From: Ulva prolifera | Lineage: Eukaryota > Chlorophyta > Ulvophyceae > Ulvales > Ulvaceae | Assembly: GCA_023078555.1 (NCBI GenBank) | Contig: CM041203.1 | Location: 1,507,481-1,571,480 of the forward strand | Length of the DNA stretch: 64,000 nucleotides | Direction: 5' to 3' | Part shown: positions 2,603 through 28,466 of the stretch, in pieces | Layout: each line of letters opens with the position of its first letter | Numbering within the stretch: position 1 is the first letter of the stretch | Translations under genes and position numbers: made by a program | Notes under the pieces: generated by a model | Databases searched by the model: none | The model's input: the letters and a program-made list of their open reading frames with translations, nothing else | What the model was told of the DNA's origin: nothing

Positions 2603-3703
2603 ATGAAACCGGCCATGCAAGGCCGTAGGGCGGTTGCGGCCTCGCAATCGCACCGCGCACCGCTCGCCCAAGGTCACCAGCTCGCCCAACGCACCGCCAA
2701 ACGCACCACCGTCAGAACCACGTCACAAGCCTCATCCTGGCCTACGGGAAAGTCTGACGATGCAGTCCCGCCAGGCGACGCCTCCACCGAGGCCTTCAAC
2801 CTCGGCACCTTCCTCGACTCAGCCTGGAAGTTCACCCGGCCACATACCATCCGAGGCACGCTCCTCGGCACCACCGCCCTAGTCACCAAGGCCCTGCTCG
2901 AGAACTCCGCCCTCATAGACTGGGCCCTCCTCCCCCGTGCCCTCATGGGCCTCCTCGCCCTCCTCTGCGGCAACGGCTACATCGTCGGCATCAACCAGAT
3001 CTACGACGTCGACATCGACTCGGTCAATAAGCCCTTCCTCCCCATCGCCTCCGGCGCCCTCACCACCGAGGCCGGCTGGCTCCTCTGCTCGGCCTTCGCC
3101 GTCGTCGGCATGGGCCTCACCACCGTCTTCTACGACCGCCTCATCGCCACCCTCTACGCATTCGGCCTCTTCCTCGGCACCGTGTACTCCGTCCCCCCCC
3201 TCCGCCTCAAGCGCTTCGCCATCCCCGCCTTCCTCATCATCGCCACCGTCCGCGGCGTCCTCCTCAACTTCGGCGTCTACCACGCCACCCGCGCCGCCCT
3301 CGGCCTGCCCTTCGCGTGGTCCCCACCCATCGCCTTCATCACCTGCTTCGTGACCCTCTTCGCGTGCGCAATCGCCATCACAAAGGACCTCCCGGACATC
3401 GAGGGCGACAAGAAGTACGGCATCAACACGTTTGCGACGGCGATGGGCGTCCGCCGCATCACTGCCCTCGGCAGCGGCATCATCCTGCTGAACTACGCCG
3501 GCGCGATCACGGCCGCCATCAAATACAGCACCGCGTTCAACGCGCCGCTGATGATCGGCGCGCACGCGGTGCTCGCGGCCGCGCTCGTGTGGATGACCGC
3601 GCGGCTGGACCGCCGAGGGTACTCCCCGGCTGCGATCCGGGACTACTACCGCTGGGTCTGGAACCTGTTCTACTCTGAGTATTTCCTGCTGCCGTTCCTG
3701 TGA
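2603..3703 (+). CDS. HST: Homogentisate solanesyltransferase (plastoquinone synthesis)
   Basis: A single uninterrupted 366-residue frame. It belongs to the UbiA membrane prenyltransferases, which attach an all-trans solanesyl chain to homogentisate in the first committed step of plastoquinone synthesis at the plastid envelope. Residues 1-60 are Ser/Thr/Arg/Ala-rich and look like a transit peptide. The first prenyl-diphosphate/Mg motif is NQIYDVDID (131-139), followed by [10 protein letters not shown]. The second is [13 protein letters not shown] (about 255). The block [20 protein letters not shown] and the C-terminal [19 protein letters not shown] match plant HST rather than homogentisate phytyltransferase (HPT/VTE2). 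Many hydrophobic segments fit the usual 7-9 membrane helices. Length is normal for the family. The gene has no intron although most neighbours are split, and codons are strongly C-ended in the first two thirds. Confidence 0.93.
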
Positions 3704-12540: not shown

Positions 12541-12712
12541 CCCGGTAGTAAAAGAGAGCGATAATAGTTTAATGGTAAAATTTTTGATTTGTAATCAAAC
12601 GTTGTGAGTTCAAGTCCCACTTATCGCTAGATTAGCCTCTGAATTAATCTTTATAGATAATTATTTTTCTAATATATTATTAATTTATTGGCAAAGAAGC
12701 CAAACCTTTCAA
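12541..12712 (+). other. AT-rich organelle-like insertion (probable NUMT)
   Basis: About 170 bases of strongly AT-rich sequence sit abruptly in GC-rich DNA. They begin around a tRNA gene and continue as an A/T spacer containing a small inverted repeat, TTGGC-AAAGAA-GCCAA (about 12688-12703), of the kind found between organelle genes. The composition and the tRNA suggest transfer from mitochondrial DNA. The tRNA does not resemble the plastid trnT-UGU I know from green algae, so mitochondrial origin is the better guess. Confidence 0.55.
12558..12628 (+). tRNA. Organelle-type tRNA-Thr (anticodon UGU)
   Basis: A cloverleaf can be drawn directly. The acceptor stem GCGATAA (12558-12564) pairs with TTATCGC (12621-12627), followed by discriminator T. 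The D-loop contains GG (AATGGTAA). The anticodon stem TTTGA/TCAAA encloses loop TTTGTAA with anticodon TGT. The T-arm is GTGAG-TTCAAGT-CCCAC with one A·C mismatch. There is no internal intron. The low GC and weak D-stem point to an organelle gene inside the inserted fragment, so nuclear expression is doubtful. Confidence 0.7.
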
Positions 12713-12904: not shown

Positions 12905-13027
12905 CACTGCGGCGGGCGTGGTGGGTGTCGCGTGCGTGGGTGTCTGTGTGTTTGCTTCGTTTGTTTGCTTCTTTCGCGGTGCTGCCCGCCTTGCTGCCTT
13001 TGTCCTTGTAACACTGCGCCGGGCGTG
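12905..13027 (+). repeat. Dispersed SINE-like element, copy 1
   Basis: The insert (12921-13011) ends in the shared 3' block GGTGCTGCC…TTGTCCTTGTAA. It is flanked by near-identical direct repeats, CACTGCGGCGGGCGTG at 12905-12920 and CACTGCGCCGGGCGTG at 13012-13027 (one mismatch). Confidence 0.65.
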
Positions 13028-13192
13028 TCCCCGGCTGCTCCGGTCACCGATGATCTCGAGTACGACGCAGCGGCGCGGCGCTTGCGGAGCACAATTCGGC
13101 GACCACGAGCGTGACACGGCGAAGGCGTATGCTGAGTGTGCAAGGCCAAGCACGCAGGCCGGGTCCGCCACGTGCGGCGGAAATCATTTACA

Positions 13193-13300
13193 TTAATGTC
13201 AATGATTGATGAAAACACATTGATTGATGAAAACATTGATTGATGACACACATTGATGACACGCATTGATGACACACATTGATTGATGAAAACACACAGA
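13193..13300. repeat. TTGATGA minisatellite
   Basis: Irregular tandem units built on (CA)CATTGAT(TGAT)GA, alternating ACAC and AAAACAC linkers, fill this stretch. No coding potential is credited to the frames that cross it. Confidence 0.7.
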
Positions 13301-13302
13301 AA

Positions 13303-13450
13303 TTTCTGTGTGTTACAAGGGTGAAGGCGGCGGGGTGGGCTGCACCGCGAAACCAGCAAGCACCGCACAAACACCACCACCAGCCCGGTCCAATGCGCCC
13401 ACGCCACAGCTGTAAACATCGTTGAAGAAGATTTGTCCCGTTTCTGTGTG
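13303..13450 (-). repeat. Dispersed SINE-like element, copy 2
   Basis: An inverted copy that begins TTACAAGG and continues GGGCTGCACCGCGAAACCAGCAAG. Its insert is 13313-13440. TTTCTGTGTG occurs on both sides (13303-13312 and 13441-13450), consistent with a target-site duplication. Confidence 0.6.
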
Positions 13451-13455
13451 CGTTT

Positions 13456-13459
<4 letters not shown>

Positions 13460-13544
<85 letters not shown>
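13460..13544. repeat. (AT)n microsatellite
   Basis: Eighty-five bases of uninterrupted alternating A and T. It lies just beyond the right-hand flank of SINE-like copy 2. Such a run is prone to length change and cruciform extrusion. Confidence 0.95.
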
Positions 13545-13547
<3 letters not shown>

Positions 13548-15215
13548 GCTGATCACACGAGGTGTAACGGTGTGTTGATTCGCGATGCCTGGAAAGGCTA
13601 GCTGTCGCATGAGCAACGGGGCATGTGGCAGTCCAATGGCACGTTTTCACGATGTGCAAGGATCCAGTGTGTATTGCGGCCGTATCAATGGGTCGCCAAA
13701 CTATCCTCTCGAAACGCTGATGACTCGTGAGTCGTGATGCATGTGTGCAGGGCAACTATCCTCTCGAGAGTGCCCGTGGTGTAGAGATAGCGGCAGCCGC
13801 ACGATCAAGCCTATAGTACACAGGCTCTAGGCCGGGCAGCAAGCCGAAAGAGACCTGTGGCACTGACTGGCTCAGTCCGACTCCTGAGGTGCCTAGCTAA
13901 ACCAGGCTATGACAGTCACAGCTGTGACAGTCACTGAGTACACAACCGGACGTGATTCGATAGAATTGTGTCATTTTATTTGAATCAGCTGTCACCCGCT
14001 CTTGCCTGGTGCAAATTGACTCCTGTCCCGCTCAAGGCGCTTGACATGCTCAGCACTTGCGGTGTGTTGATCACAAGTCGCTGTATCTCGCCTGAGTGCG
14101 CCGAATTCGCGGGGGTTGTGGCCCAAGCAAACACGAGACAGCGCGCGGCTGACCCGCACCGTGAACAGGATACACCCGACATCAGGAGATGACAGAACAC
14201 TACTTCTGCGCGAAGGTAAGGATCTCCTTGCCTCGTCGAATCTAAATCGCCAGCGCTCAAACGCTGTTGCCGAGCCTGCAAAATCCGCCTCTTGTGCGAG
14301 TATGATCATCACTTGGAAAGGCACAGATCACCGCTCAACATCCTGACCTGACATAATTTGTTGCTGAGTGGATGCTGTGCAGCCGGAGCTAGGTTCAAAC
14401 ATCGGATCTGAATGACACCTGCGGTCTCATAGCAGTGGATGCCTGCGCTCCAGCGCAGCTGAACGTCATGGTAAGTGAGAATTCTTCGTCCCAAACATGC
14501 TTTCAAATCAATCTCAAGGTCTGACGGTAATGGTTCCGGCATAAGACGATGGCACAGCAAGTCTACATTGGGGTGTACGTGCAGGGACCATGCCTGGACC
14601 TCACACGCCCCACGTTGGAAGTTGGAGTAAAGTGTATTCCGGAGCATCTATTCTGGGAAGCTTTGCCTGAACAGGCAATATCAGCTTTGGCAGCGCCTTC
14701 AAAGGGTAGCAGCAGCAGTACAGTCCATGATGCCCAGGTTCATACGATGCGGTCAGTGCTTGGCAGCTTCTCCACGGAGGCCCACATCGTAGAGCAGCTG
14801 GCGAGTTTTGCTCGGTGTGTAGTCCGTCCTACACACTGCAGTGCCGGCCACGCCAAGCCGTGCCAGCAGATGAGCGCATGGCAGCTTGCAAAGCTCCTCA
14901 ACCATATCCAAGCTTGCGCAGGGTTGGAGCTTTTGCATTTGCTAGCGGCAGCAGCATGGCGATCATTGGAGGGAGGCAAACAGCTCGAGTTGCAGTGACA
15001 GCAGATTCGCTGAAGCAGCCCGATGACGAGCCCCACGCCAACCAGGAAGTGGTGCACCTACAAAACCTCCAGGCCAGGTCTGATCATGATCCATGTATCG
15101 AACGTGCGTGCTTGTTGGAGCTGCTGTCATCCTGAGTCTACACGATGAAGCACATGGCAACAGTGCTTCTGCACCTGCATCTCATTGGTGAGGTGCCCTG
15201 ATATGCAGGACAGGT
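13545..15215. other. Intergenic, no certain gene
   Basis: No gene can be supported here. A plus-strand frame at 14549-14998 has a helical, Leu/Ala-rich C-terminal half (MSAWQLAKLLNHIQACAGLE), but its start and splice partners are unclear. The rest shows only short frames. The right end should contain the promoter of the Kelch/BTB gene. Confidence 0.3.
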
Positions 15216-18200
15216 GTGGTCACGGAGAAGCGAAAGATGGGCGGCAAGAGAAACGACCCCGACAAGAAGGTCAAGCTCAAGTCAGACGAGCAGTGGGTGT
15301 GGGAGCAGTCCCGAGAAGCCGACGAGTCGAGCATCACGGACATCTGCAAGTCCCATGCCTGCAACAACCACATCGTGATCTCTGATGTGCGGGAGCGCGT
15401 CCGCTCTGGGCGTCCAAAGCTTGAGACCGTGGCTGTGCGGCTCCTTGCTCCTGGCGTGTGTAATCACGGATGACCCACCACCGCCTCTGCAGCCTGATGC
15501 TCCCAGAGCTTCAGGACCATGTGGCCAGGGCTGCCCCGTCATGTCCACACCATCTCGTGAACACTCAGGCAGCTGTTCTTGAGCATGCGAGTTGCACATG
15601 TGCTCCTGACCGAGTGCAGTCGTGCAGGCAGGCCAAACGTTCCACAAGTCTCGGGACACCTCTGCGATGCTGGACGGGATGCTGGTGATATACAGTCGCC
15701 ATACATCATCGCTGACCGTGTTCCACCTCGACACCCATCCTGGTGCTGCTTCAAGCAGTGCGTATCTGCCGTGGGAGACCTGTGCGATGCCAGCTTCACC
15801 AGCCGCTGCCCCTGTTGCGGCGCTACCTGCAGCATGCGGGACATCCAGGCCTGCCCTGGAGTCAAATGAGAACCGCCCTCAAGGGCTCAATCAGTCCGCC
15901 ACACCACACGCACAAAGTGTCAGGGCTGCTCTCCCGACACAGCCGAACCAGCCGATTGCTGCTGCTGATACGACTGCGTTCTACCAAAACTCTTCGGGCG
16001 AAGCTGTGCCAGCTGCCCGAGCTCGCGATGCAGCTGCGGCGGCAGTCGCGAATGCAGGCCCTGCTGCAAGCCGGCTGTGGCGGCAGAGCGACCTTGAGCT
16101 AGCGGAGCCATCGTTAGAGCAAGCGCATCTCAACTCGAAGGCATGCATGATCAGTGCAGAGTCTGGGGCCCTGCCACCCAGCAGCTCCTGCTGGAGTGCG
16201 ATGGCGTCAGATGCGGCTAGAAACAGGTGAGGAGGCTGTCTGATTGACTGCTTGACACGGCCGCAAAACCTTCAGAGCAGGATTGATGTTGGTGTGGCAG
16301 CTACGGGCGAGATTGGTGATCCGCCGCCCCACCGTATGAGCAGGATTGATGTTGGTGAACCAGCATTGGACAACTTCGGTGTAGGGCTGCTTTTTCAATG
16401 GCTGTGGGGGTGTCTTGCAATGTACAAGCGCACCAGTGGTGCCTCACAAGACACATTTATTCTTAAACAATTACATCCACTCGTTGTTTCCCAATGCCAT
16501 ACATAGGGATCTATGCCTCGAAATGCAGATTGCTGAAGGTAGGCCGCTGTGTAGGTTCATCGTGTTGCAAGGTGACCGCCGCTGTAAGCATTGGCAGCCA
16601 TTCGAGTTCGTGCCCAAGAAGCCCATGGAGGCCTCTCCTGATCTACCGCTCGTACAGGCATGTCGAAGGAACTACCGCTTCTTGTCGCGCCCAATCTCGG
16701 TATGCCTTGGTCCTCAGGCAGCAGCACCCCGGGTGGTCATGTCATCACATTGCAATCGATGGCAATGCACCCGATTGCATGGCCACAGATCGACTTGTCG
16801 CACACCCTTCCGCGCTCCAGATTTGAGCAGCCTCGATGCCACGTGGCACCCAGGGACTGCTGTTGCACGCTATGTACTCTGCACAATTCAAAAAGAAAGG
16901 CAGTGGCTGGAAGTCATACAGACATGGCGCGGTGACTGCCTGTGGGAGGTGGTGCAGGGGTGCTCCGGGAGGACGATATCCGTGAGGTACAGCATCCAGT
17001 ACACGCTCGTGCACGCAGACGTGCTGTTCGCCATCGTGTGCCCTGACGCATCGACCGCCGCCACCCAGCGGCCACAGGCGCTGCGGGTGTACAGCTTGGA
17101 CCTGAGCACCCTCGTCTGGAGCCTCATCAGCCCCAGCAAGCACGACGATCCCAAGATGCAGTACCCGATACCCCGGAACCAGGCAGCGTGCACGCACAAG
17201 GGACGTACGGTGTGGCCGCCTGCACAGACACCAGCAAACCCCTGCTGTGTTTGCTGTTGTGTGGTTCCTCGTGGTTAACTGTGTCCCGTACAATGGCGCT
17301 GCCTCACTTCAAATGAAACAGACGGGACAGGAGTACTCACGTTCATTGATACACGTCGCTGTGTTGGATACCTTGGCCGTTGTTTTTTGTTCGGCATTGA
17401 ATGCAACAGAGGAAGCCTTGCAGGTGTACCTGCATGGCGGCAATGCTGTCGCAACAGGCCATGGCTGCTTAAACGACCTGTGGCAGTTTGATGTGCGCAA
17501 ACACACCTGGACTCGAGTGCCCGTGGCAGCATCCAGGCAACACATCTCTGACAAGCTCGCGTCAGTCTCTACGTCCGTGGCGTCCTCCTGCCAGCACACC
17601 CTCGCTGTGGACTCGTCTGGCTCGTTTATCATCCATGGGGGCTCCTCCAGCCGTGGAGACCTGAACCGAACGCTCCAGGTGGTGACGCAGCTCGTCAGCA
17701 ATGTCCCCGGGGGCGCCCCCAACAACATGGCGATGGCCTCTCGCCTCCGGCCCGCGGGCACCGTCGCAGCTCTTGCCATGTGTCGGTACAGCCCAGCTAG
17801 CTCCACCCTGCTCCGCCTGCGTGTCCCATGAACATGGTAGTTGCAACGCAAACTGGCAGTGTGATGACCAGGCAATTAGAAGGACTTAACTGCAGTTGCA
17901 TGCACTTCACACCCATTGTTGTGCGGATCTGAGTTATCTTAGTTGGCCTACTTGCCTTGGGCACTGCCGAGCATTGGACTTTCGCCATGCATGTGCTTCT
18001 CGAAAGCTGGATACAGAGTCTTCCATCAGGTGCATTGCCTGCATGCTCACTCGGACAACATGCGCATCTGAGATGGCCTGAGCTGCTGCGCAGGGCACAG
18101 ATCGCCCGTGCAGTGCTGGCCGTGAATAAGGCCTCCGCGGTCATCTGCATTCGCAACGCTCACGCCGAGCAGAGAATCGCTGCGCCCATTCTCGTGCTGC

Positions 18201-18890
18201 AGCTGTACTCCGGGATGCTCTTCGACATGGTCCAGGATGGCATCTTTGAGGGCTCGCTGTCGGGCGCGGATGCCGCGCCTGCGGTGCTGCCGGTCAACCC
18301 GCGGCATGACCCCGCGGCCGTGCAGATGGCGCTGCGGTGGGTGATGGGGATGGCCACGATGCTGCCGCTGGACGTGCATCCCTGCGCCGAGGTCCTGCGG
18401 TAACGCCCCCCCCTGCCCATAGATGATCACCTCAGCATGCTTCGACACTGTGTGATGTGGCATGCAACAATTATCAGATTTCCAGTCGATGGCGGTCGCA
18501 TTCCGATGGCTGTTGCATGTCAGAGCAGCTGCATGTCTACAGACAGCACTCCACAAAACAGAGCGCTGGAGCGGTGCGTGTGACAGTGTTCATGGACGGC
18601 CAGGCCGTTTGCATGCACGGGCGCAGCCTTGCACAATGGCGGTCCCTCTGAGCAGCCTTCAGCGGTGCAGCAGTCCGCGGCGTGCATCCCCACGGCCGGC
18701 CAGGCATGCTCACCCCAGAGCATGGTGCAGGGTGGCGGAGTTCTTCATGATGAGGTCGCTGCGGGCCGAGGCGCTGTGCGTGATCTGCCAGAAGGCGACC
18801 GCCAAGCACCTGCCGCTCCTCAAGGACCTCCAGGACACGCTCACCGTGCCCGAGCTCGCCCCGGTCATCCTCAGGCTGCAGCTCCGCTGA
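15216..18890 (+). CDS. Kelch-repeat / BTB-domain protein
   Basis: A multi-exon plus-strand gene. A basic first exon (MGGKRNDPDKKVKLK…) ends near 15385. An exon near 15631 has a Kelch-like blade (RDTSAMLDGMLVIYSRHTSS). One exon ending at 17204 gives RVYSLDLSTLVWSLI. It joins at 17410 to a clear blade, VYLHGGN…LNDLWQFDVRKHTWTRV. C-terminal exons ending at 18399 and starting at 18731 (phase 2, donor GTAACG) encode a BTB fold: APILVLQLYSGMLFDMVQDG, then AEVLRVAEFFMMRSLRAEAL, with a stop at 18890. In this family the BTB part usually binds Cullin-3 and the Kelch propeller binds a substrate. That role is inferred. The middle exons and the first exon's membership are not fully resolved; a 20-bp direct repeat lies in the intron near 16.3 kb. 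Confidence 0.6.
16275..16357. repeat. 20-bp direct repeat, spacing 63
   Basis: GAGCAGGATTGATGTTGGTG occurs exactly at 16275-16294 and again at 16338-16357, inside a predicted intron of the Kelch/BTB gene. The unit between could be a small insertion with its target duplication, or half of a tandem repeat. Confidence 0.8.
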
Positions 18891-19237
18891 CGCGATCACC
18901 AACAAATGGGGTCGAGGGGCTCTCACAGGGGTTGCCTGATGTGCGCCCTCAATGCATGCGGCGGCGCAAGCTCCATGCCGCGTGTGAGTGTGCTAGGTGA
19001 TTGGGGGTGGGAAATGCAATGCACCGAGGCCACGACCAAACAGTTGAGAGGGGCCGATCGGATCGCGCTTTTGCATCACGCTTCATGGTGACGATTGTAA
19101 TGATTGCTGCTGTGGGCGCACTCGCTGGAGGCCTCAGTATCGTCGACTTTGCAGTGCCTCGTTGGGATATAATATTGGGTAGTGTGCGGTTGTACCTCGC
19201 CCCCCTCTTTGCAGCCGATTGCGATATCGCAAGTATG

Positions 19238-19384
19238 CACATGCATCGTGTGTTACAAGGACAAAGCAAGCAAGGCAGGTTGCACCGCGAGCAGCAACCA
19301 GGGGAACCGCACACCACGCAACAAGCCACACGCAGCACACCCCCATGCACCACCAGCACCCGCGCCGGCCACATGCATCGTGTG
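19238..19384 (-). repeat. Dispersed SINE-like element, copy 3
   Basis: The insert 19253-19369 begins TTACAAGGACAAAGCAAGCA. It is flanked by a perfect 15-bp direct repeat, CACATGCATCGTGTG, at 19238-19252 and 19370-19384. Over about 85 bp it is nearly identical, in reverse complement, to copy 7. Confidence 0.85.
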
Positions 19385-19686
19385 TGTCTGCCACTCGAAT
19401 GCGCCCCCACTGTTGACAGTGGCCGCTCCCGCAAAGAAGCCTTGCATAGCTGAGTGCCGTCACTCAGCTTCACGCTTTCTACGCCTGGAACATTCATCCC
19501 TCAGCTGAGCTCAGCATGCCGCCGCCACGGCTCTCTGCTCAAAGGCTGCTTCAATTCCAATGCTCCAAACCTGAATCCATGTGCTTCAGCAGGCTCTTCG
19601 TTCAGCAGCTCCAGTGATCCAACCCTCGCGCAGACAAAGTCGACATTGTAGTGTATGTATGGCCACAGCCACAGGCCAGTAGTCAT

Positions 19687-19762
19687 ACGGTCGGTGCAAC
19701 CTGCCTTGCTGGCTTTGCCCTTGTAATTACAAGGGCAAAGCCAGCAAGGCACACGGTCGGTG
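19687..19762. repeat. SINE-like element, copy 4 (palindromic)
   Basis: Between two copies of ACGGTCGGTG (19687-19696 and 19753-19762) lies a 56-bp insert. It is a near-perfect palindrome of the element's 3' end: TGCCTTGCTGGC…CTTGTAA followed by TTACAAG…GCCAGCAAGGCA. It looks like two 3' ends joined head to head. Confidence 0.8.
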
Positions 19763-20963
19763 AGTCGGTGCCCTGTGTGTGCGAGCATTATGTACTGGGC
19801 GGTGCATGAGGGGGCAATCCCTCGAGATGCTGCGGGACTCGGCTGTGTCCACGTGTACGGGGTGCGTGTGGGCGCCATGCGTTTGAGAGCTACCTTTCCA
19901 AGGAAGCGCACTGCCGGGCCAGCCCGCATATTCAAGACTGCAGGTGCACGTCAAGATGTGGCTCATAATCACATCATATTTTCTCTTTCGCTCGGGACGG
20001 CTTACATCGGTAGCTGCAGTCTGTGAGGAGTCCGGATTTTGAATAGCCGCGCGCTCTTGGACTTCGGAAGTGCCCATGGGACACGTTGACGCCCACCCGC
20101 CATTCGATCTACCCGGTATGTAACCTTGTCAGCTTGATGGCATATTTGAGTGTGGCATGGATGTGCGCGGTGCTGTGCGTTTCGGGGCCGATCCGCCTGT
20201 GTGACAAATTTCGAATCTGGAACACTGGGCCAAAAACGCCGACGGCCGGTCGAAGTCAAGCACACCCCATCTTCGCTGCAGTTCAGGATCTGCGGTATAG
20301 GCTGTCCTCAGATGTGGGCATATCTCGTGAGATAATTGTACTGTACACGTTGAGAATCGACGATTCCGAAATGCTGAGCTTTCTGAAGCTGCTGCGTGAC
20401 CTCCGGCAGATGTCGATCGAGCTCCGTGTCGAAACCTTCAGCTCTGGATAGCGCTACACATACATTTGAACAGCTCGTCAAGATAGCTGCGCAGACTCTC
20501 TCATTATCACCGCCGAGCCATGTGCGATAGACCGTCTCGGCGGTCGCGCTGCTGAGCAAATGAATTGCTCCCGTGCCCTGCACACCTCATGAACCGGCAA
20601 GACCGGCAAATACACCTGCATCGCTACATCTGGCGTATTCGACGCAAACGTTGCTTGGCATATTTCGTTAGTAGCGCATGGTGCCGCTAGCAGGCGGCAG
20701 GAGACAATCCATGCACCCAGCTGCAACGTGTGACGACAGGCGCGACATCGACATGCGGTCCGGAACACACACAGACACACCCGCCGTGGACGCCAGGGGC
20801 GAATGCATGCTGAGCCTTCTGTTCCGTCTGTTGTAGACGGTACTCTTGCGTAGCCAGATGCCATGCCGCGGAGTCCTCCTGATGCTCATGTTCGCGCGCA
20901 CAAGTCGCGCACAGGTCGACCATATGATCTGCGTGCGACATGGCCATGTGGCGTGGCGTGGCC

Positions 20964-21033
20964 ATGTGCATTGGCGTTCAGTGTTTGTTTTCTCCCGTTC
21001 ACTCTTCTGTCATCCCCGATGTGCATTGGCGTT
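20964..21033. repeat. Short insert with 15-bp target duplication
   Basis: ATGTGCATTGGCGTT occurs at 20964-20978 and again at 21019-21033. The 40 bp between contain TCTCCCGTTCACTCTTCTGT, a block that recurs in a similar form near 23173-23194. Confidence 0.65.
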
Positions 21034-21305
21034 GCTGCTGGCCGGCGCCAGCGCTAGCAGCAACGCCACGGCGCAATCTGCCTCTAGAGGATCTCCACTG
21101 AAACATGCAAACATATGTGCACATCATGATGCACACTTGAAACAACCTGCATCGCCTGGCGTTTGAACATTCTATAGTACGCACTGCTGCAGCTAGTACT
21201 TCTCAGTTGCTGCGGTGGCAAATTCACAGTCTGCCTCTGCAGATATCTACGTGCACAAACATCTTGCAATTGTTTGAAACGAGGACATGCATGCACATCT
21301 GTTGC

Positions 21306-21643
21306 ACATGCACCATATGTGGGGCCGGCGCCGGCCGGGCCGCTGCGTGGGGCTGCTGCTGCCGCGCGGGCGGCGGGGTCGTGTAGCGTGTTGGCGTGTG
21401 GGTGTGTGTGTTGGGGGTCGGGTCTGGGCCGCGTGCGGGTGCGTGGGTGCGTGGGTCGGGTGTCAGTGAGTGGTTCGTGTGGTAGTGTGTGGGAGCGTGG
21501 GGGTGTGTGTGTGCTCGTTGTGCCTTGGCGTTGGCTGTTGCTCTCCTGCTGCGTGCGCATTGCGTTTCTTCTGCTCTCCCTTTTGGTCCTGGCGGTGCTA
21601 CCTGCCCCTCCAGCTTTTTCCTTTGTAACACATGCACCATATG
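21306..21643 (+). repeat. Dispersed SINE-like element, copy 5 (longest)
   Basis: The 310-bp insert (21320-21629) is GT-rich and ends GGTGCTACCTGCCCCTCCAG…CCTTTGTA. It is flanked by a perfect 14-bp direct repeat, ACATGCACCATATG, at 21306-21319 and 21630-21643. Confidence 0.75.
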
Positions 21644-21801
21644 CCCGTTGGACCACCGTACGTACGCCAGCTGAACGTCACTGCACTGCTCCTCCCGTTC
21701 CTCTGGCGTGTTGCCAAGGCCCTGCACGTGCGGGTTCGCCGCTGGTCAGTCCATGCCACTGTCCCTAACGTAGCTGCTCACTGTCGCTGGCTGGGTCTGC
21801 A

Positions 21802-22080
21802 GGCACGCATCCGATGGAAGACCACTCGGATCCAGAGTTCAGCATGGGGAGCCTCCTCTACGCTGCAGCAGCCTGGGTTTCATACTGGCCGCACACCCTG
21901 GCCATCGTGACCCTGGCCTGCACTCTGCTGGCCGTACACCTCCGGAAGTGCGCCCGCCTTGCTCCCCCTCATGCATTGTGCGCCATGGCTGCAAGCCGGA
22001 GCTCTGCAGAGGGCCGGCGAGCTACTTCCGCCATCGTTTGCACAGCGCTCGACCTTGAGATCAAGACACATGCATGTAGG
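21802..22080 (+). other. Candidate exon with a membrane helix
   Basis: After a good acceptor (GGGTCTGCAG) a frame reads MEDHSDPEFSMGSLLYAAAA and then a strongly hydrophobic stretch, PHTLAIVTLACTLLAVHL, likely one transmembrane helix. It could be an extra N-terminal exon of the dioxygenase downstream, but I could not join it in frame, and the dioxygenase is full length without it. Confidence 0.25.
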
Positions 22081-22156
22081 TCATGACCCACCTGATTGAC
22101 CAGCTGCACACCACACATGCATTGGTGTGCTGGGCTGTGCTGCGTGCCGGTGGTGG

Positions 22157-22244
22157 CATATGCATGGGTGTGCAGCGCCTCCGTTTGTGGCCTGCGGTGC
22201 TACCTGCCTCGCTGGCCTTGCCCTTGTAACACACCACATATGCA
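22157..22244 (+). repeat. Dispersed SINE-like element, copy 6
   Basis: A short copy ending GCGGTGCTACCTGCCTCGCT…CCCTTGTAA, with CATATGCA on both sides (22157-22164 and 22237-22244). The duplication is short, so the boundaries are approximate. Confidence 0.55.
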
Positions 22245-22482
22245 GCGACCACGTTCAGCTGAAGCATACGTGTATATGAGCCACCGATTGCAAGCGCTGG
22301 ACTGCCAAACACGCCGCACGTGCTTGCTGTTGTGTCTGCAGATGAACAACTCAAGAGCATCGGCACCTTGTGCCACAGGCTGTCATGAACAGGCTCAGAG
22401 CTCTAGCTGCAAAGGTAGCGTGTATTGATATCATATGCCTCCACCCGCCTGAGCCGAGGCTGACGGTGCCTGCAGGGCCATC

Positions 22483-25400
22483 ATGACGGTGGTGTTTGAG
22501 GCGCTGCAGCGGACTCACGCCGGCGTCGGGGGCGTCTTCCACACCGGCCTCTTCCAGCCCACCCCCCACGAGCTCCACATCACAAAACCCCTGCCGGTTC
22601 TGTCAGGCTGCGTCCCGTCTGAGCTAGACGGCTACTACATGCGGACTGGGCCGAACCCCCAGTTCGATCCGATCGGTGGGTGCGAACTTGACCCAGTGCT
22701 GACACATATGAAGCACCGCCGCATTTATACCTCGGTTCAAGCCGCAAGCCACAGGTGCTAGAGGCTCAGGCAGCGCAGCTGCGATGTGGTCGGTGTGGTG
22801 GACTGGAGCAACGGTGGCGGTGTGGGTTTGTAGGTACCACCTGTTTGATGGGGAGGCGATGATTCACTGCGTTCAGTTCAAGGAGGGCGCGGCGACGGCG
22901 TACTGCAACCACTGGGTGCGCTGCGAGCGGTTCGAGAACGAGAGGAAGGCTGGGCACAACATCTACATCCGGGTGCGCCCCCTGTGTGCCGCGCTCTAGA
23001 GATCTCCCCCGGCCCTGCTGGTGTCTGGCTGTGGCTGCAGGTGCAAACCGCTGATCTGGGTGCCGATGGTGTGTCGAGGTTTCCTTAGAGCCTCCCCGAC
23101 TAGCCCTCACCCCAGAGCCCCTGGTACTCGTGCTCATGCTCGTCGAAATTTTTTTTCCCGACGCACGAGAGTACCCGTTCACTCACACTTCTGTAACACA
23201 TGTCGAGTCGGGATCCTCGACGTGGTGCATGAACACCACTCCCTCGTTTTCAAAACACCCGTTTCCAAATGGGCCCATATATATGGTTTAATATTAAACC
23301 TATATACAGATTGGGGACATGCGGGGCCTCCAAGGCCTCTTCATGATCATCGTGATGTACCTCTGCCCCTTCAACCTCCCAGGCAAAAAGTACAAAGGCA
23401 AGGAGCAGGCTGCGATGGGCAACACCGCCATCGCATGCCACCGCGGCCGCCTCCTGGCGCTGAACGAGGCAGGCTACCCGATCGAGGTCAAGCTGAGCAG
23501 CGAGGGCAGTATGAGCACGGGGGAGGTGGTGCGATACGACGGCCGCCTCGACCACCCGTTCACTGCCCACCCGAAGATCGACCCTGCCACCAATGAGATG
23601 TGCTTCTTTGGCTACGAGTGCGTTTTCCACCAGCCCTGGGCTTGCATGAGCCACGAAGCGCTGTTCTGCTGTACCTCAGAGTTCAAGGATTCACTGCAGA
23701 TGTGTGGTAGGCAGCGAAGTGTACAACAGATATATCGCGATGTGCCATCACACACTATATGTGGGTAGATATCTATCGATATACCAGCAATATAACACGC
23801 CTGTACACGTCGTTGCACGCAGGCTTCTGTAGACTCTCAATGACTTGTGGACACTGTTTTGCAAACTGAGTTTGCTGTGATATCATTGAGCGAGGATTTT
23901 TGTTTTCAAGTTGCAAATTCAATTGCAAGGCGTGTCCACGGGGACATTCGCGCTGTGACAGGTGGCGCCACAGCCCAAGCCACACACCGTGGCTCTGCGT
24001 GCAGGATCGGCCTCACTTCTCCTGTGACCTACAGCACCGTGTCGGCTGACGGCCGCCTCTCGAAGGGCACAGCTATCGACGTGCAGAAGGCTCAGCTGAT
24101 GCATGACTTTGGCATCACACCCAACTACGCGGTGTTCATCGACCAGAACCTCGTCATGACGCCACAGGCACTTTCCTTTCTCTCAGCACAGTTATGTGTA
24201 TATCGTGATTTTTTCAGAATTCAAATATTGAACATGTTTGTTAGCTTGCACTGCTCATCGTGGAGCGCATGCTGTAGAGGCTCTCGCACTATGTGAACTC
24301 AGTCCATGCGCAGTTCTGAGATGCGCTGAATCCTGCCGAAACGTTCCAGACCTCATACATTTATACGCACACTAGCGTCCTCGGACCCCCGCAGAGAGGC
24401 AGGAGAGGCGCAGCGCGTGCAGGCGCTCATGAAGCCGTGCAAGAAGCTGCCGTTTGCAATCGAGAACGGCTTCAACGGCCGCCTCGGGCTGTTGCGGCGC
24501 AGCGCCCCCGGGGCCGGCGTGGCGTGGTTCGACCTCGGCCGCCCCGTCGGCTGGGCGGCGCACGTCGGCAACGCATGGGAGGACGCCGATGGCAGCCGAG
24601 TCCACATCGTCATCACTCAGTGCGCCGCCCCCTACGCCTTTGCCTCCTATGTGTATATACCGCGAAACAGTAGCCAATCTGTCGGGCGTGAAACCCAAAT
24701 CGGTCCTTGGATCGCTGAGAGTGACTGTCAATCCTTGGCATTGAGTACGGTGTACATGGGTTAGTGTGATCATGTGTCAACTGATGTGTGCAAGACGACC
24801 TCCCTCAGCCTGCCATGCATGCATGTAGTTACAAAGGACAGAGGCCGGGCAACGAGCCGTTTCTCGGAATCCACTCGCAAATCCAGTCACTCAGTCATGG
24901 CACTAGGCCGCGCACGAGCGCGCACCACCGCCCTGGCGGTAGTTCCAGCCAGCGATTGAAGCCCTGCACGGAGCGCATGAGCCTGCATGCATGTATTTAC
25001 GATCGCATGATGACACAGCCTCAGGGAACTGCATTCGCATCTGCGGTGATGCCCCGCAGACTGCATGACGCCGTATCACCGCAGCACGCAGCCGAAGCCG
25101 TTTGAAGCAAGTGTGCGACAGGTCGGCGGCGATGCGTCCCGACGTCTCCGAGGGTCGCACGCATCCCCTCTAGACACACAGCAGCCCCCCAGCGCATGCA
25201 TGCAGGTATGATCAGCTGGACCTATCAGCCGAGGAGTTCACGCTCGGAGGCGGCATCGCGCGCCTCGTGCGGCTGTCCGTGCACGTCGCCTCTGGCCGCG
25301 TGGAGTGGACTCAGCTCGTGACCGACCCCCACCTGCACTTCGAGTTCCCCGTCATCTCCGCGAAGAACGTGGGCCAGGGTTGCCGCTACATGTATGCGGT

Positions 25401-26625
25401 CTACTCGGACATCCGGTACGGCCCGCCTCTCACGTGCCCGGATCCGGATCCGGATCGATCCAGCTTGATATGTACTATCAAGCTCGGTGCCGTCCTGACA
25501 ACACACCGCGGCGGAATCACTCCCCGACGCTGTGAGGTGGCTGAGCGCCGCAAGGCCCGCATGAGTGTGTGTGCGCCACATGGCTTCTGCGAGCGCGGTG
25601 GTCGGCGGCGCTGACGCCGTCTGACGGCAACGCGGCCGCGCATGCGTGGCAATGACCGGGCTCTCGCCGGTGTGTGGACCCCGTACCTGCACACATGCCT
25701 GTAATCGTCCAAGACGTTTCAGCTGATCATGCTGGCCAGATCCGGCCGCAGGTGCGACCAGCTCGAGCGACACATGTTTACATTGTCGTACCGACGTCTG
25801 ACGTAAGAAAGAATCACAGGTGCCGGGTCGGCTGCAGGTACTCCCACACGCGGGTCGCCTTTGACGGCATCGCACGGATCGACATGCATGCCCAGGCGGG
25901 CGAGGGCCTGCAGGGCCGCACTGCCTTTCCGGACGGGTTCAAGGGCGGAGAGTTCTCGTTCGTGCCGCGCAAGCTGGCCGCGGCTGCCTTGGGGCCCCGC
26001 GACAGCGAAGACGGCTACATTGTCGGGTTCATCACGAATGAGGAGACGCAGCAGTCCCGCCTCGCGGTGCGCACAGAACACCACCTGAACGGAAAGCGAA
26101 TTCGTTTAAACAACCCCACCTGAAAGGAAAACGAAAAAACCCACCTGAAGCGTTGCCTGTCAACGCGTGGCCGCAGGTCGGTATGCATGAAAATATATGG
26201 CCATGTACGTACAGACACTGACCACTCTGACTGCGGGGACCCGAGTGTGTGCATCGCTCCAGAAATATATTCCTGCACGTCGCGCCTGCTGTCAGGCAAA
26301 GCAGCAAGGCTGTCACACATGCAGCGCATGCATGTGCATCATTTGCAAGCAAGGACTCCGTGCGTAGACGTATGCCGGGCCGGGTCCCACATTGCGAACA
26401 GTTCCAAATGCTTGCGTGTACGTCTACGTGGATTGCAGCCCACATCATGCAGCGGGGCGGCCAAACACCGGGGCTGTGCAGGTGTATGACACATTCTTCA
26501 CCTTTGAGGACCCATCCTTCCCAGACCCACCCGGCCCCGCGATGATTCAGATGCCTCACCGCATCCCCCTCGGCTTCCACGGGCTGTTTGTGAGGCAGGA
26601 CGAGCTCGGAGGCAAGCACGTCTAG
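22483..26625 (+). CDS. Carotenoid cleavage dioxygenase (CCD1/NCED-like)
   Basis: Eight exons join in frame: 22483-22679, 22834-22972, 23310-23617, 24005-24190, 24395-24619, 25206-25415, 25838-26066 and 26482-26625, giving 545 residues, normal for CCD1. The enzyme cleaves a carotenoid double bond with O2 and a non-haem Fe(II). The four iron-binding His are visible: His199 in FTAHPKID, His248 in LMHDFGIT, His333 in AAHVGNAWED and His531 in LGFHGLFV; their spacing matches RPE65-type enzymes. Other family blocks are ELDGYYMRTGPNPQFDPIGG, YHLFDGEAMIH and IGDMRGLQG. The start at 22483 follows an in-frame reading from an acceptor at 22475, so a further 5' exon cannot be excluded. No clear transit peptide is seen, which suits a cytosolic CCD1. 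Donors are mainly GTGCG. Substrate and cleavage site cannot be told from sequence. Confidence 0.88.
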
Positions 26626-28466
26626 GGCCCGCTTGTGGGTCGCTCGGGTGTGCTGTGATTTTGATAAATGTGGCAATAATTGCAACGATGCACAAGTCGT
26701 CGTCTGCCTCGTAGTGCTTTGAGGACTTTTTCCTACAGTTCAATATCTTCATGTGATGTTTGTGAGTACCCAGTGTGTGCGACACACTGGGAGCCACCTG
26801 ATGCCTGTAGAGGTTTGACTGTCATACCTTGACCTGTTGAGAGGATCCTCTCGAGTTACGTACCGAGACGCTTGGAGTGGCCATGCTGAGTGCTGGAGGT
26901 AGGGATTTGGCACAAGTATTATTGGTGGACAGTACAAGCCTGTGTGCACTATCAGACTGTGGACAGTTTTTCAACACATGACGCAACACATAACTGTGGG
27001 TGTGTGTGATCGTATGGCTGTGACCGGCGCGAGTGCTGGCGGTATGTTTGTGTGTGATGCGTGTGGCTTGTTGCGTGGTGTGCGATTCCCCTGGTTGCTG
27101 CTCGCGGTGCTACCTGCCTTGCTTGCTTTGTCCTTGTAACACACGACACATAACACAGTCAATGTACAATAGGATACGGCTCAGTAAATTCAGATTTACT
27201 TTACTTCACACAGTTCAAGCCCCTTCACTGCCTGTCCATGTCGAGGACGTGCCTGGTGACGTGCAGCAGGGCAGTGATCTCTGCCAAGCTCCATCACCAA
27301 AGTCCCTCGCATGATGTTTCAGCAAGCCTGGGATGCTGCAGAGCACCGAGCGTCTGTGTGAGGACATTTGATTGCAATGATGGCGGTTGACATGGCAATG
27401 GTGAAGATTCAGTGGTGGCTGCGCCACCTGGGGTGGAAGGTGCCCAGCGGTGTACGTTTGCGGTGCTGCATATTCTCACTGATGCACAACTCGCGGTAGC
27501 TGTCATGCTGCCCTTGCATTGATAGACAGACCGTGCCTCACCACGCACGCGCACAATTTGGACACAATGTACGTACATGATTGCCTTCAAACCAAGCAGC
27601 CACTGTCGGTGAGACAGCATACCCGTTTCAATGGCTCAGGTAAGTGTTGCGAGGCAGGCCAGCTTTGCCACACTGCGAAACCTACCTGCAGTAATGCATA
27701 CAACGGCGACGACCAATTGAAGTGGCAACACGGACTAGCGCATCGGGTGTCATGGTACAATGCAAGGGTGAGCCCGTACAGGTGATGGAGCAGCATGAGT
27801 ACGAGCTGTCATGCCTGTGCATAACACAACGAGCATACAGAGTGGATTCTGGTGCAAGAGCGGGACCCCAGTCATCCCGTTCCTGGCAACACATGGTCAC
27901 AGCCGTGGGTTGAATGCAGTGCTGCACTTGCCATGTCCAAGTGCCGACACGAGTGCAGACGCCTCCGAACAGCAACCTGGAACGTCTGATATACAAAGGA
28001 AATCTGCGAAAAAGACAATTGGAGCGATCTCTGGCGATCGAGCATAACAGCAGACAAATCAAGGTGTTGCAACGGCATACTTCCGGCCACGGCCACATGC
28101 CGGCCGCCCCGCTGGCCGCGTTGCAACAGCCACTGGGTCAAACTGGCAGCCGCGGCTACGCACATCTCTCTCAAACGAGGGTGTCTCCATCCAACGGAAT
28201 GGCCGGGGCCACGGTACATGCATGCGCTCTTCCTACTAAGAGCTTCTCAAGACGCTTCCCGCGCACCTCCCCCCCCCTTCCCCAAAGCCACACAACAGGA
28301 ACATCATCGGCAAACGCCACCCGCACAACCCCCCGGGCGGACAGGGCGTCGACGGGCCGTGCAGGGCCGCTGCGGGACCCCTTTCGGGCCCGGGCGGGTG
28401 GCGTATCGGCGCCACAGTGGCATGCATGTGGGCGCCGCACAGGCTACCATGGGGGACTCCCGCACG
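26626..28466. other. Intergenic between converging genes
   Basis: This stretch lies between the stops of the dioxygenase (plus) and the PP2C gene (minus). It contains SINE-like copy 7 and otherwise only short frames without family motifs. Confidence 0.4.
26996..27154 (+). repeat. Dispersed SINE-like element, copy 7
   Basis: The insert 27005-27145 ends GGTGCTACCTGCCTTGCTTG…TCCTTGTAACACACG and is flanked by ACACATAAC on both sides (26996-27004 and 27146-27154). Its core, GTGTGGCTTGTTGCGTGGTG onward, matches copy 3 almost base for base. Confidence 0.8.

Follow-up and report, generated by a model that had tools for sequence, protein, structure and literature searches.

Dispersed short retroelement copies of Ulva prolifera as likely 5'-truncated insertions of endonuclease-bearing LINEs at short CA/TG targets

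A 64,000-nucleotide stretch of the Ulva prolifera genome (contig CM041203.1, C8:1507481-1571480; hereafter the window; genome of 88.9 Mb in 44 contigs) contains seven short, dispersed retroelement copies that are very probably 5'-truncated insertions of long interspersed nuclear elements (LINEs) rather than short interspersed nuclear elements (SINEs). Their source is in all likelihood a high-copy group of LINEs whose 3' ends match the window copies, labelled RLE-B here, inserting by target-primed reverse transcription at a relaxed, (TG)n-type target. The observed basis is a fixed 3' end with variable 5' ends, duplications that start with CACA, sequence shared with the 3' ends of LINEs, and long frames with homology to reverse transcriptase (RT) and restriction-like endonuclease (RLE). 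The original prediction had described seven copies with a common 3' block, variable 5' ends and both orientations, and all of these are present; the fixed 3' end reads …CCTTGTAA or …CCTTTGTAA. The copies and their flanking repeats are listed below in window positions (L numbers denote loci, C numbers contigs).

12905..12920, plus strand: upstream target-site duplication of copy 1, CACTGCGGCGGGCGTG, 16 bp with one mismatch against 13012-13027
12921..13011, plus strand: copy 1, 91 bp, 3' end of a C11-type RLE-LINE subfamily, 100% over 91 bp to L002 (C11)
13012..13027, plus strand: downstream target-site duplication of copy 1
13303..13312, minus strand: 3'-side target-site duplication of copy 2, minus strand CACACAGAAA, 10 bp, no mismatches
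13313..13440, minus strand: copy 2, 128 bp, of which only the 3' ~50 bp match the LINE tail (78%)
13441..13450, minus strand: 5'-side target-site duplication of copy 2
19238..19252, minus strand: 3'-side target-site duplication of copy 3, minus strand CACACGATGCATGTG, 15 bp, no mismatches
19253..19369, minus strand: copy 3, 117-bp LINE 3' end, 95% over 79 bp to L026 and 82% over 124 columns to L087
19370..19384, minus strand: 5'-side target-site duplication of copy 3
19687..19696, no strand assigned: duplication of copy 4, ACGGTCGGTG, minus strand CACCGACCGT, 10 bp
19697..19752, no strand assigned: copy 4, two 3' ends tail to tail with perfect 25-bp arms, an aberrant insertion
19753..19762, no strand assigned: second duplication of copy 4
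21305..21319, plus strand: upstream target-site duplication of copy 5, CACATGCACCATATG, 15 bp, no mismatches
21320..21628, plus strand: copy 5, 309 bp, from the 3' untranslated region (UTR) of an RLE-LINE whose open frame has 1,556 codons
21629..21643, plus strand: downstream target-site duplication of copy 5
22107..22121, plus strand: upstream target-site duplication of copy 6, CACACCACACATGCA, 15 bp, one mismatch
22122..22229, plus strand: copy 6, 108-bp LINE 3' end; 22167-22229 (63 bp) is 79% identical to L087 and 78% to L026
22230..22244, plus strand: downstream target-site duplication of copy 6
26986..26994, plus strand: upstream 9-bp repeat of copy 7, ACACATAAC, an imperfect duplication
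27011..27139, plus strand: copy 7, ~129-bp LINE 3' end, 81% over 137 columns to L087 and 78% over 150 columns to L026
27146..27154, plus strand: downstream 9-bp repeat of copy 7, ACACATAAC, 6 bp past the 3' end

Direct repeats of 10-16 bp bracket six of the copies, much as predicted, whereas the duplication of copy 7 is imperfect (9 bp exact). Those of copies 1, 2, 3, 5 and 6 all begin with CAC. Re-measurement replaced the 8-bp duplication proposed for copy 6 by one of 15 bp with one mismatch around a longer copy (22122-22229), and moved the end of copy 5 from 21629 to 21628, with a perfect 15-bp duplication. Copy 2 does carry its predicted 10-bp duplication, but its family match is confined to the last ~50 bp; the 5' 78 bp (13363-13440) are unlike the LINE ends compared, have one other genomic match (C9:3305609, 81%), and possibly represent a chimeric cDNA or an old subfamily. 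Copy 4, taken earlier for a single copy with a duplication, has the duplication but consists of two joined 3' ends, perhaps the product of a snap-back or double-priming accident. Its perfect palindrome with a flanking direct repeat is what speaks for DNA transposons of the MITE (miniature inverted-repeat) type, bounded by terminal inverted repeats, an explanation of negligible probability and one already ruled out at the level of the whole family: the exact tail-to-tail sequence CCTTGTAATTACAAGG occurs once in the 88.9 Mb, at copy 4 (exact genome search), the other window copies have a single fixed end, and duplication length is variable.

The 3' ends of the copies lead to LINEs with long coding regions. 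Longer copies reach ~660 bp upstream, and two loci, L026 and L002, enter a reading frame. Over 139 residues the L026 frame shares 43% identity with the C-terminus of the protein of element A (L079, C3), a second RLE-LINE of ~1,200 codons (49 scored places, 92-100% identical). The L002 frame, where the final ~110 RLE codons survive ahead of the tail, matches the element A protein from residue 844 on. In a genome search with the L026 coding end, six of the 150 places scored (of 1,499 candidates) lie in open frames of 1,531-1,556 codons, and the same six match the RT protein P0175 over residues 97-966 or 134-981. The 3' ends were examined for three long-frame LINEs: L085 (C7:617742) and L086 (C3:5534747) end in ..TTTTTCCTTTGTAA, and L087 (C1:786446), with a 1,535-codon frame, ends in ..GGTGCTACCTGCCTCGCTTGCTTTGTCCTTGTAA. 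Copy 5 is identical to L086 over 309/309 bp and 98.7% identical to L085, and copy 1 is identical to L002 over 91/91 bp. Copies 3, 6 and 7 match a different RLE-LINE lineage, which includes L087, at 78-95%. By these matches the short copies are LINE 3' ends, the upstream part of copy 2 excepted; the LINE with a matching 3' end that the original prediction envisaged is represented by several elements with long open frames. The 100% matches of copies 1 and 5 also support recent activity of the group. That conclusion had earlier been drawn from copies 3 and 7, said to be near-identical over ~85 bp; this was too strong (90.6% identity over 127 bp), and recent activity follows from copies 1 and 5, not from that pair.

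Other candidate sources were rejected. A search with RVT_1 (150 of 452 candidates scored) led, among others, to six smaller regions, none of which showed a family tail when examined; two RVT_1-region frames are, by eye, Ty3/Gypsy-like polyproteins, and two of the six regions hold the unrelated CTTTGTAA. A LINE with an apurinic-type endonuclease (APE-LINE, 1,574 codons) has its open reading frame (ORF) followed by CATA repeats, with no family tail at the one 3' end inspected (L083). Among the scored RVT_1 matches, 24/150 lie within C7:3.6-5.0 Mb (1.4 Mb), possibly a centromere or mating-type region.

The original prediction had offered a SINE or a truncated LINE, formed by target-primed reverse transcription; the truncated LINE stands, and no shared 5' head of the SINE kind was seen. 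A SINE would here be a non-autonomous element with its own polymerase III head and a borrowed LINE tail, which could account for the high copy number, the short lengths and the ~35-bp tail common across subfamilies, and also for the copy 2 tail joined to unrelated sequence, the clustering of copy-1 family lengths at 91-109 bp, and the 3' tail shared with the partner LINE, though the copies, copy 2 apart, share LINE sequence beyond the tail too. Yet the 27 copies with a duplication score (see below) of at least 9 span 46-660 bp without a common start, the longer ones continue into the LINE 3' UTR and coding end, copy 5 is LINE 3' UTR in its entirety, and an Rfam scan of the window at the gathering threshold gave one tRNA gene only, outside the copies. 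We regard a SINE origin as highly improbable and retain truncated LINE insertions as the explanation.

Further copies were expected across the genome, and these are abundant. The family tail pattern (CCTTGCTNGCYTTGYCCTTGTAA, 23 bases, up to 2 mismatches allowed) matches 6 places in the window, vs none in 100 shuffles, and 900 + 887 = 1,787 places genome-wide, vs 0 + 0 for a reversed control. The tail of the copy-5 subfamily adds a further 255 genomic places (control 0). The genome-wide density predicts 1.29 tails in a 64-kb stretch; the six window matches, which represent five insertions, amount to a modest enrichment (Poisson P ~0.01) in a window where the finding had been picked because of them.

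The sequence past the 3' end of 30 pattern tails was matched to the 760 bp upstream, with another locus's flank as control. Duplication scores of at least 10 were reached by 14/30 tails vs 4/300 control pairings, so the flanking repeats exceed chance as anticipated, and in 12 of the 14 the upstream duplicate lies at most 8 bp from the break in homology with other copies. In the remaining two it is displaced, by 29 bp in L030 and by 441 bp in L035, whose duplication is probably false or derived from a compound insertion. We then compiled 47 junctions, comprising the 30 pattern tails, 7 copy-1 family members, 6 window copies (copy 4 was left out), a nested L019 copy and 3 full-frame LINEs. The positions after the 3' end are C at +1 (47), A at +2 (43), C at +3 (47) and A at +4 (42), and CACA follows directly in 38/47 vs a flank background of 1.2%. 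Upstream duplicates start with C (25/27), A (24/27), C (25/27) and A (24/27), preceded by C in 15/27 and A in 16/27. Since the upstream duplicate also begins with CACA, CA|CACA is the target and not part of the element. At most three CA units are present at 42/47 junctions, and at least 148 follow the full-length copy L085. At L019b the target is CCCA, and the 14-bp duplication is perfect. Genome-wide, the tail plus CAC occurs at 1,655 places vs 1,787 for the tail alone, an approximate share with up to 2 mismatches allowed in each. A recently active group has thus left some two thousand 3' ends in the genome, and their target rule can be read from 4-6 bp.

In the mechanism we propose, the RLE would nick a short CA/TG run on its TG-rich strand (CA|CACA opposite), giving a ...TGTG-3'OH primer, and the RT would begin at the fixed 3' end of the RNA, ..CCTTGTAA or ..CCTTTGTAA, with cDNA expected to begin TTACAAGG after the nick at TGTG. 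Copying would often halt early, within the 3' UTR, and a second-strand cut ~10-20 bp away would duplicate the target; the group may still be active today. For a candidate RNA hairpin at the 3' end, 74% of cells pair vs 30-52% when slid, and its three two-sided changes are reached by 13/500 shuffles; on the other side, 145/500 shuffles reach its covariation score, and only 1/6 tails folds clearly better than its own shuffles (z -2.4).

The protein evidence comes from both RLE-LINEs. Element A matches RVT_1 (5e-11) and an R2 profile (5e-29), and its structure model aligns with R2 as far as the C-terminus. Its residues D780, D794, K824 and E844, which we take to be the D..D..K and E motif of the RLE, are conserved in at least 90% of 89 rows, and a CCHC knuckle before the RLE (C593, C595, H606, C610) is invariant in 11 rows, limited to element A and relatives. 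An N-terminal zinc finger is visible by eye in the relatives P0123 and P0134. The six RLE-B frames align to P0175 across its RT (RVT_1 at 465-601), and the RLE-B coding end is homologous to the element A RLE region over 139 aa. From these comparisons, the source LINEs are predicted to combine an R2-type RT with a C-terminal RLE.

A different assignment would make the partner a Dualen/RandI-type LINE with both APE and RLE, as in Chlamydomonas, instead of a member of the RLE-only R2 group. Such elements occur in green algae, in Chlamydomonas and relatives according to the available text of PMC8226300, and like RLE-B are green-algal LINEs with an RLE (PMC8226300 and PMC4640811, in the parts accessible). 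The RLE-B frames, at 1,531-1,556 codons vs ~1,200 in element A, leave room for an extra N-terminal domain. Dualen differs, in the same portion of PMC4640811, in also carrying the APE endonuclease, and none of 25 Exo_endo_phos_2 places falls within the six RLE-B frames, in a search made without PF03372 and on frames whose N-terminus is unread. Moreover, the relatives P0123 and P0175 show RVT_1 alone in Pfam, and the best matches of the profile are R2. A Dualen-type partner is therefore unlikely, and an RLE-only LINE the more probable one.

Copy length might depend on the target. An RLE coding match lies 100-1,300 bp upstream in 7/45 tails followed by (CA)7 and in 2/100 of the zero-mismatch tails listed (Fisher P = 0.004), a comparison confounded by the scoring of 150/1,499 coding candidates, slightly different patterns, the origin of the 100 tails from C1-C4 only, and the copy-5 subfamily (13/39 listed zero-mismatch places), which is longer by itself. 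One of the three full-frame LINEs sits in a long CA run; after the other two come CACATCCCCAAA(CA)n and CT(CA)n, both rather short. The link of copy length to CA-run length is suggestive. On a tentative reading, which we hold to be rather doubtful, the site type would set the product, with long (CA)n yielding long or full-length copies and a lone CACA mostly short dead 3' fragments; just as speculatively, the endonuclease might need only two or three CA units, placing this RLE-LINE between site-specific and free-ranging elements. If true, target sequence would govern the extent of reverse transcription or the timing of the second-strand cut. At L006 (C2:10924948), the 5' junction shows a T-tract plus GGGCGT, like a piece of its own 3' UTR, before the 3' UTR start, which looks like a template jump.

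In the accessible text of PMC4640811, RLE-LINEs split into CRE, R2, R4, NeSL and HERO and are mostly held to one repetitive target; many HERO families are non-specific and some target microsatellites, and Togen of fish comprises RLE-LINEs restricted to (TG)n microsatellites. Some R2 families lack site specificity (PMC5035012, part of the text), and the portion of PMC7650587 available describes R2-like non-site-specific elements and 5'-truncated R2 copies. RLE-B belongs to this known RLE-LINE kind, with a short relaxed target. As far as those descriptions go, it resembles Togen in its RLE type and TG/CA dinucleotide target, the CA|CACA core agreeing with (TG)n specificity, but it is found in a green alga, a long microsatellite is replaced by a CACA core of 4-6 bp at most of the 47 junctions, and the copies sampled are mainly 3' fragments. 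HERO, as described, shares the RLE, dispersed copies and microsatellite preference. R2 (PDB 8gh6, 8ibw, 9dou, 9nl3) has the RT-linker-RLE order and fold predicted by the element A model, and 5' truncation (PMC7650587, as above), yet inserts at one 28S rDNA site, unlike the Ulva elements at dispersed CACA sites. Among the 3' repeats in Table 3 of PMC3747384, as accessible, are (CTTGTAA)n for a green-algal RTEX LINE and (CATA)n and (CA)n for L1s. The RTEX heptamer equals that at the Ulva 3' end, where CTTGTAA is single, not tandem, and the ORF ends in an RLE; no second CTTGTAA follows the 3' end in the 47 junctions, C-N-C coming next instead. Transposable elements of Ulva partita are counted with LINE families unnamed in the available part of PMC5601483. 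The titles and abstracts searched hold no description of the RLE-B family, with Repbase and most subscription papers outside that scope, so absence from print is not shown. With this group one can ask how target choice loosens in a site-specific LINE, and why the majority of copies are dead on arrival. Should the copies prove polymorphic, they may also be of use as presence/absence markers in Ulva populations.

Several points weigh against truncated RLE-B insertions as the source of all copies. Copies 3, 6 and 7 are only 78-95% identical to the nearest LINE ends, their exact source element not having been found, and copy 2, its tail apart, is mostly unrelated sequence. In the copy-1 family, L003, L004, L007 and copy 1 all end at 91-109 bp near a T-tract, a possible preferred stop, in a list selected by match score and hence biased. 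No duplication above the score used accompanies 20/47 junctions, and L003, one of the 27, is doubtful. L009/L010 (duplicated blocks) and L027/L036 (common flank) are not independent among the 47, and pattern searches favour well-kept tails. Finally, the evidence on the N-terminus of RLE-B, on its RT motifs and on the catalytic residues of its RLE consists of search matches and fragments, and L026, whose coding end was used, is itself a truncated copy.

Element A lies in the CATA repeat just after the APE-LINE ORF at C3:1727278-1737901 (L077, L083, L079). It is found at most 13 kb downstream on the same strand at 7/21 APE-LINE places (the four lowest of 25 excluded) and forms 8 head-to-tail pairs 3.2-4.3 kb apart; one LINE may be homing to another LINE's tail. 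Close to the start of C1, L009 (C1:44610) and L010 (C1:59402) sit in near-duplicate (92%) blocks of a tandem repeat with a ~120-bp unit, perhaps subtelomeric. Within the window, a tRNA-Thr (TGT) gene (12557-12629) lies ~290 bp upstream of copy 1, and copy 2 is flanked by an (AT)42 run and by tandem repeats of the TTGATTGATGA type (13203-13544). A prenyltransferase ORF (2603-3700) shares 80% identity with an Ulva mutabilis protein, which is not its closest match, and a carotenoid-oxygenase-like reading frame is recognizable by eye near 22.5-24.3 kb.

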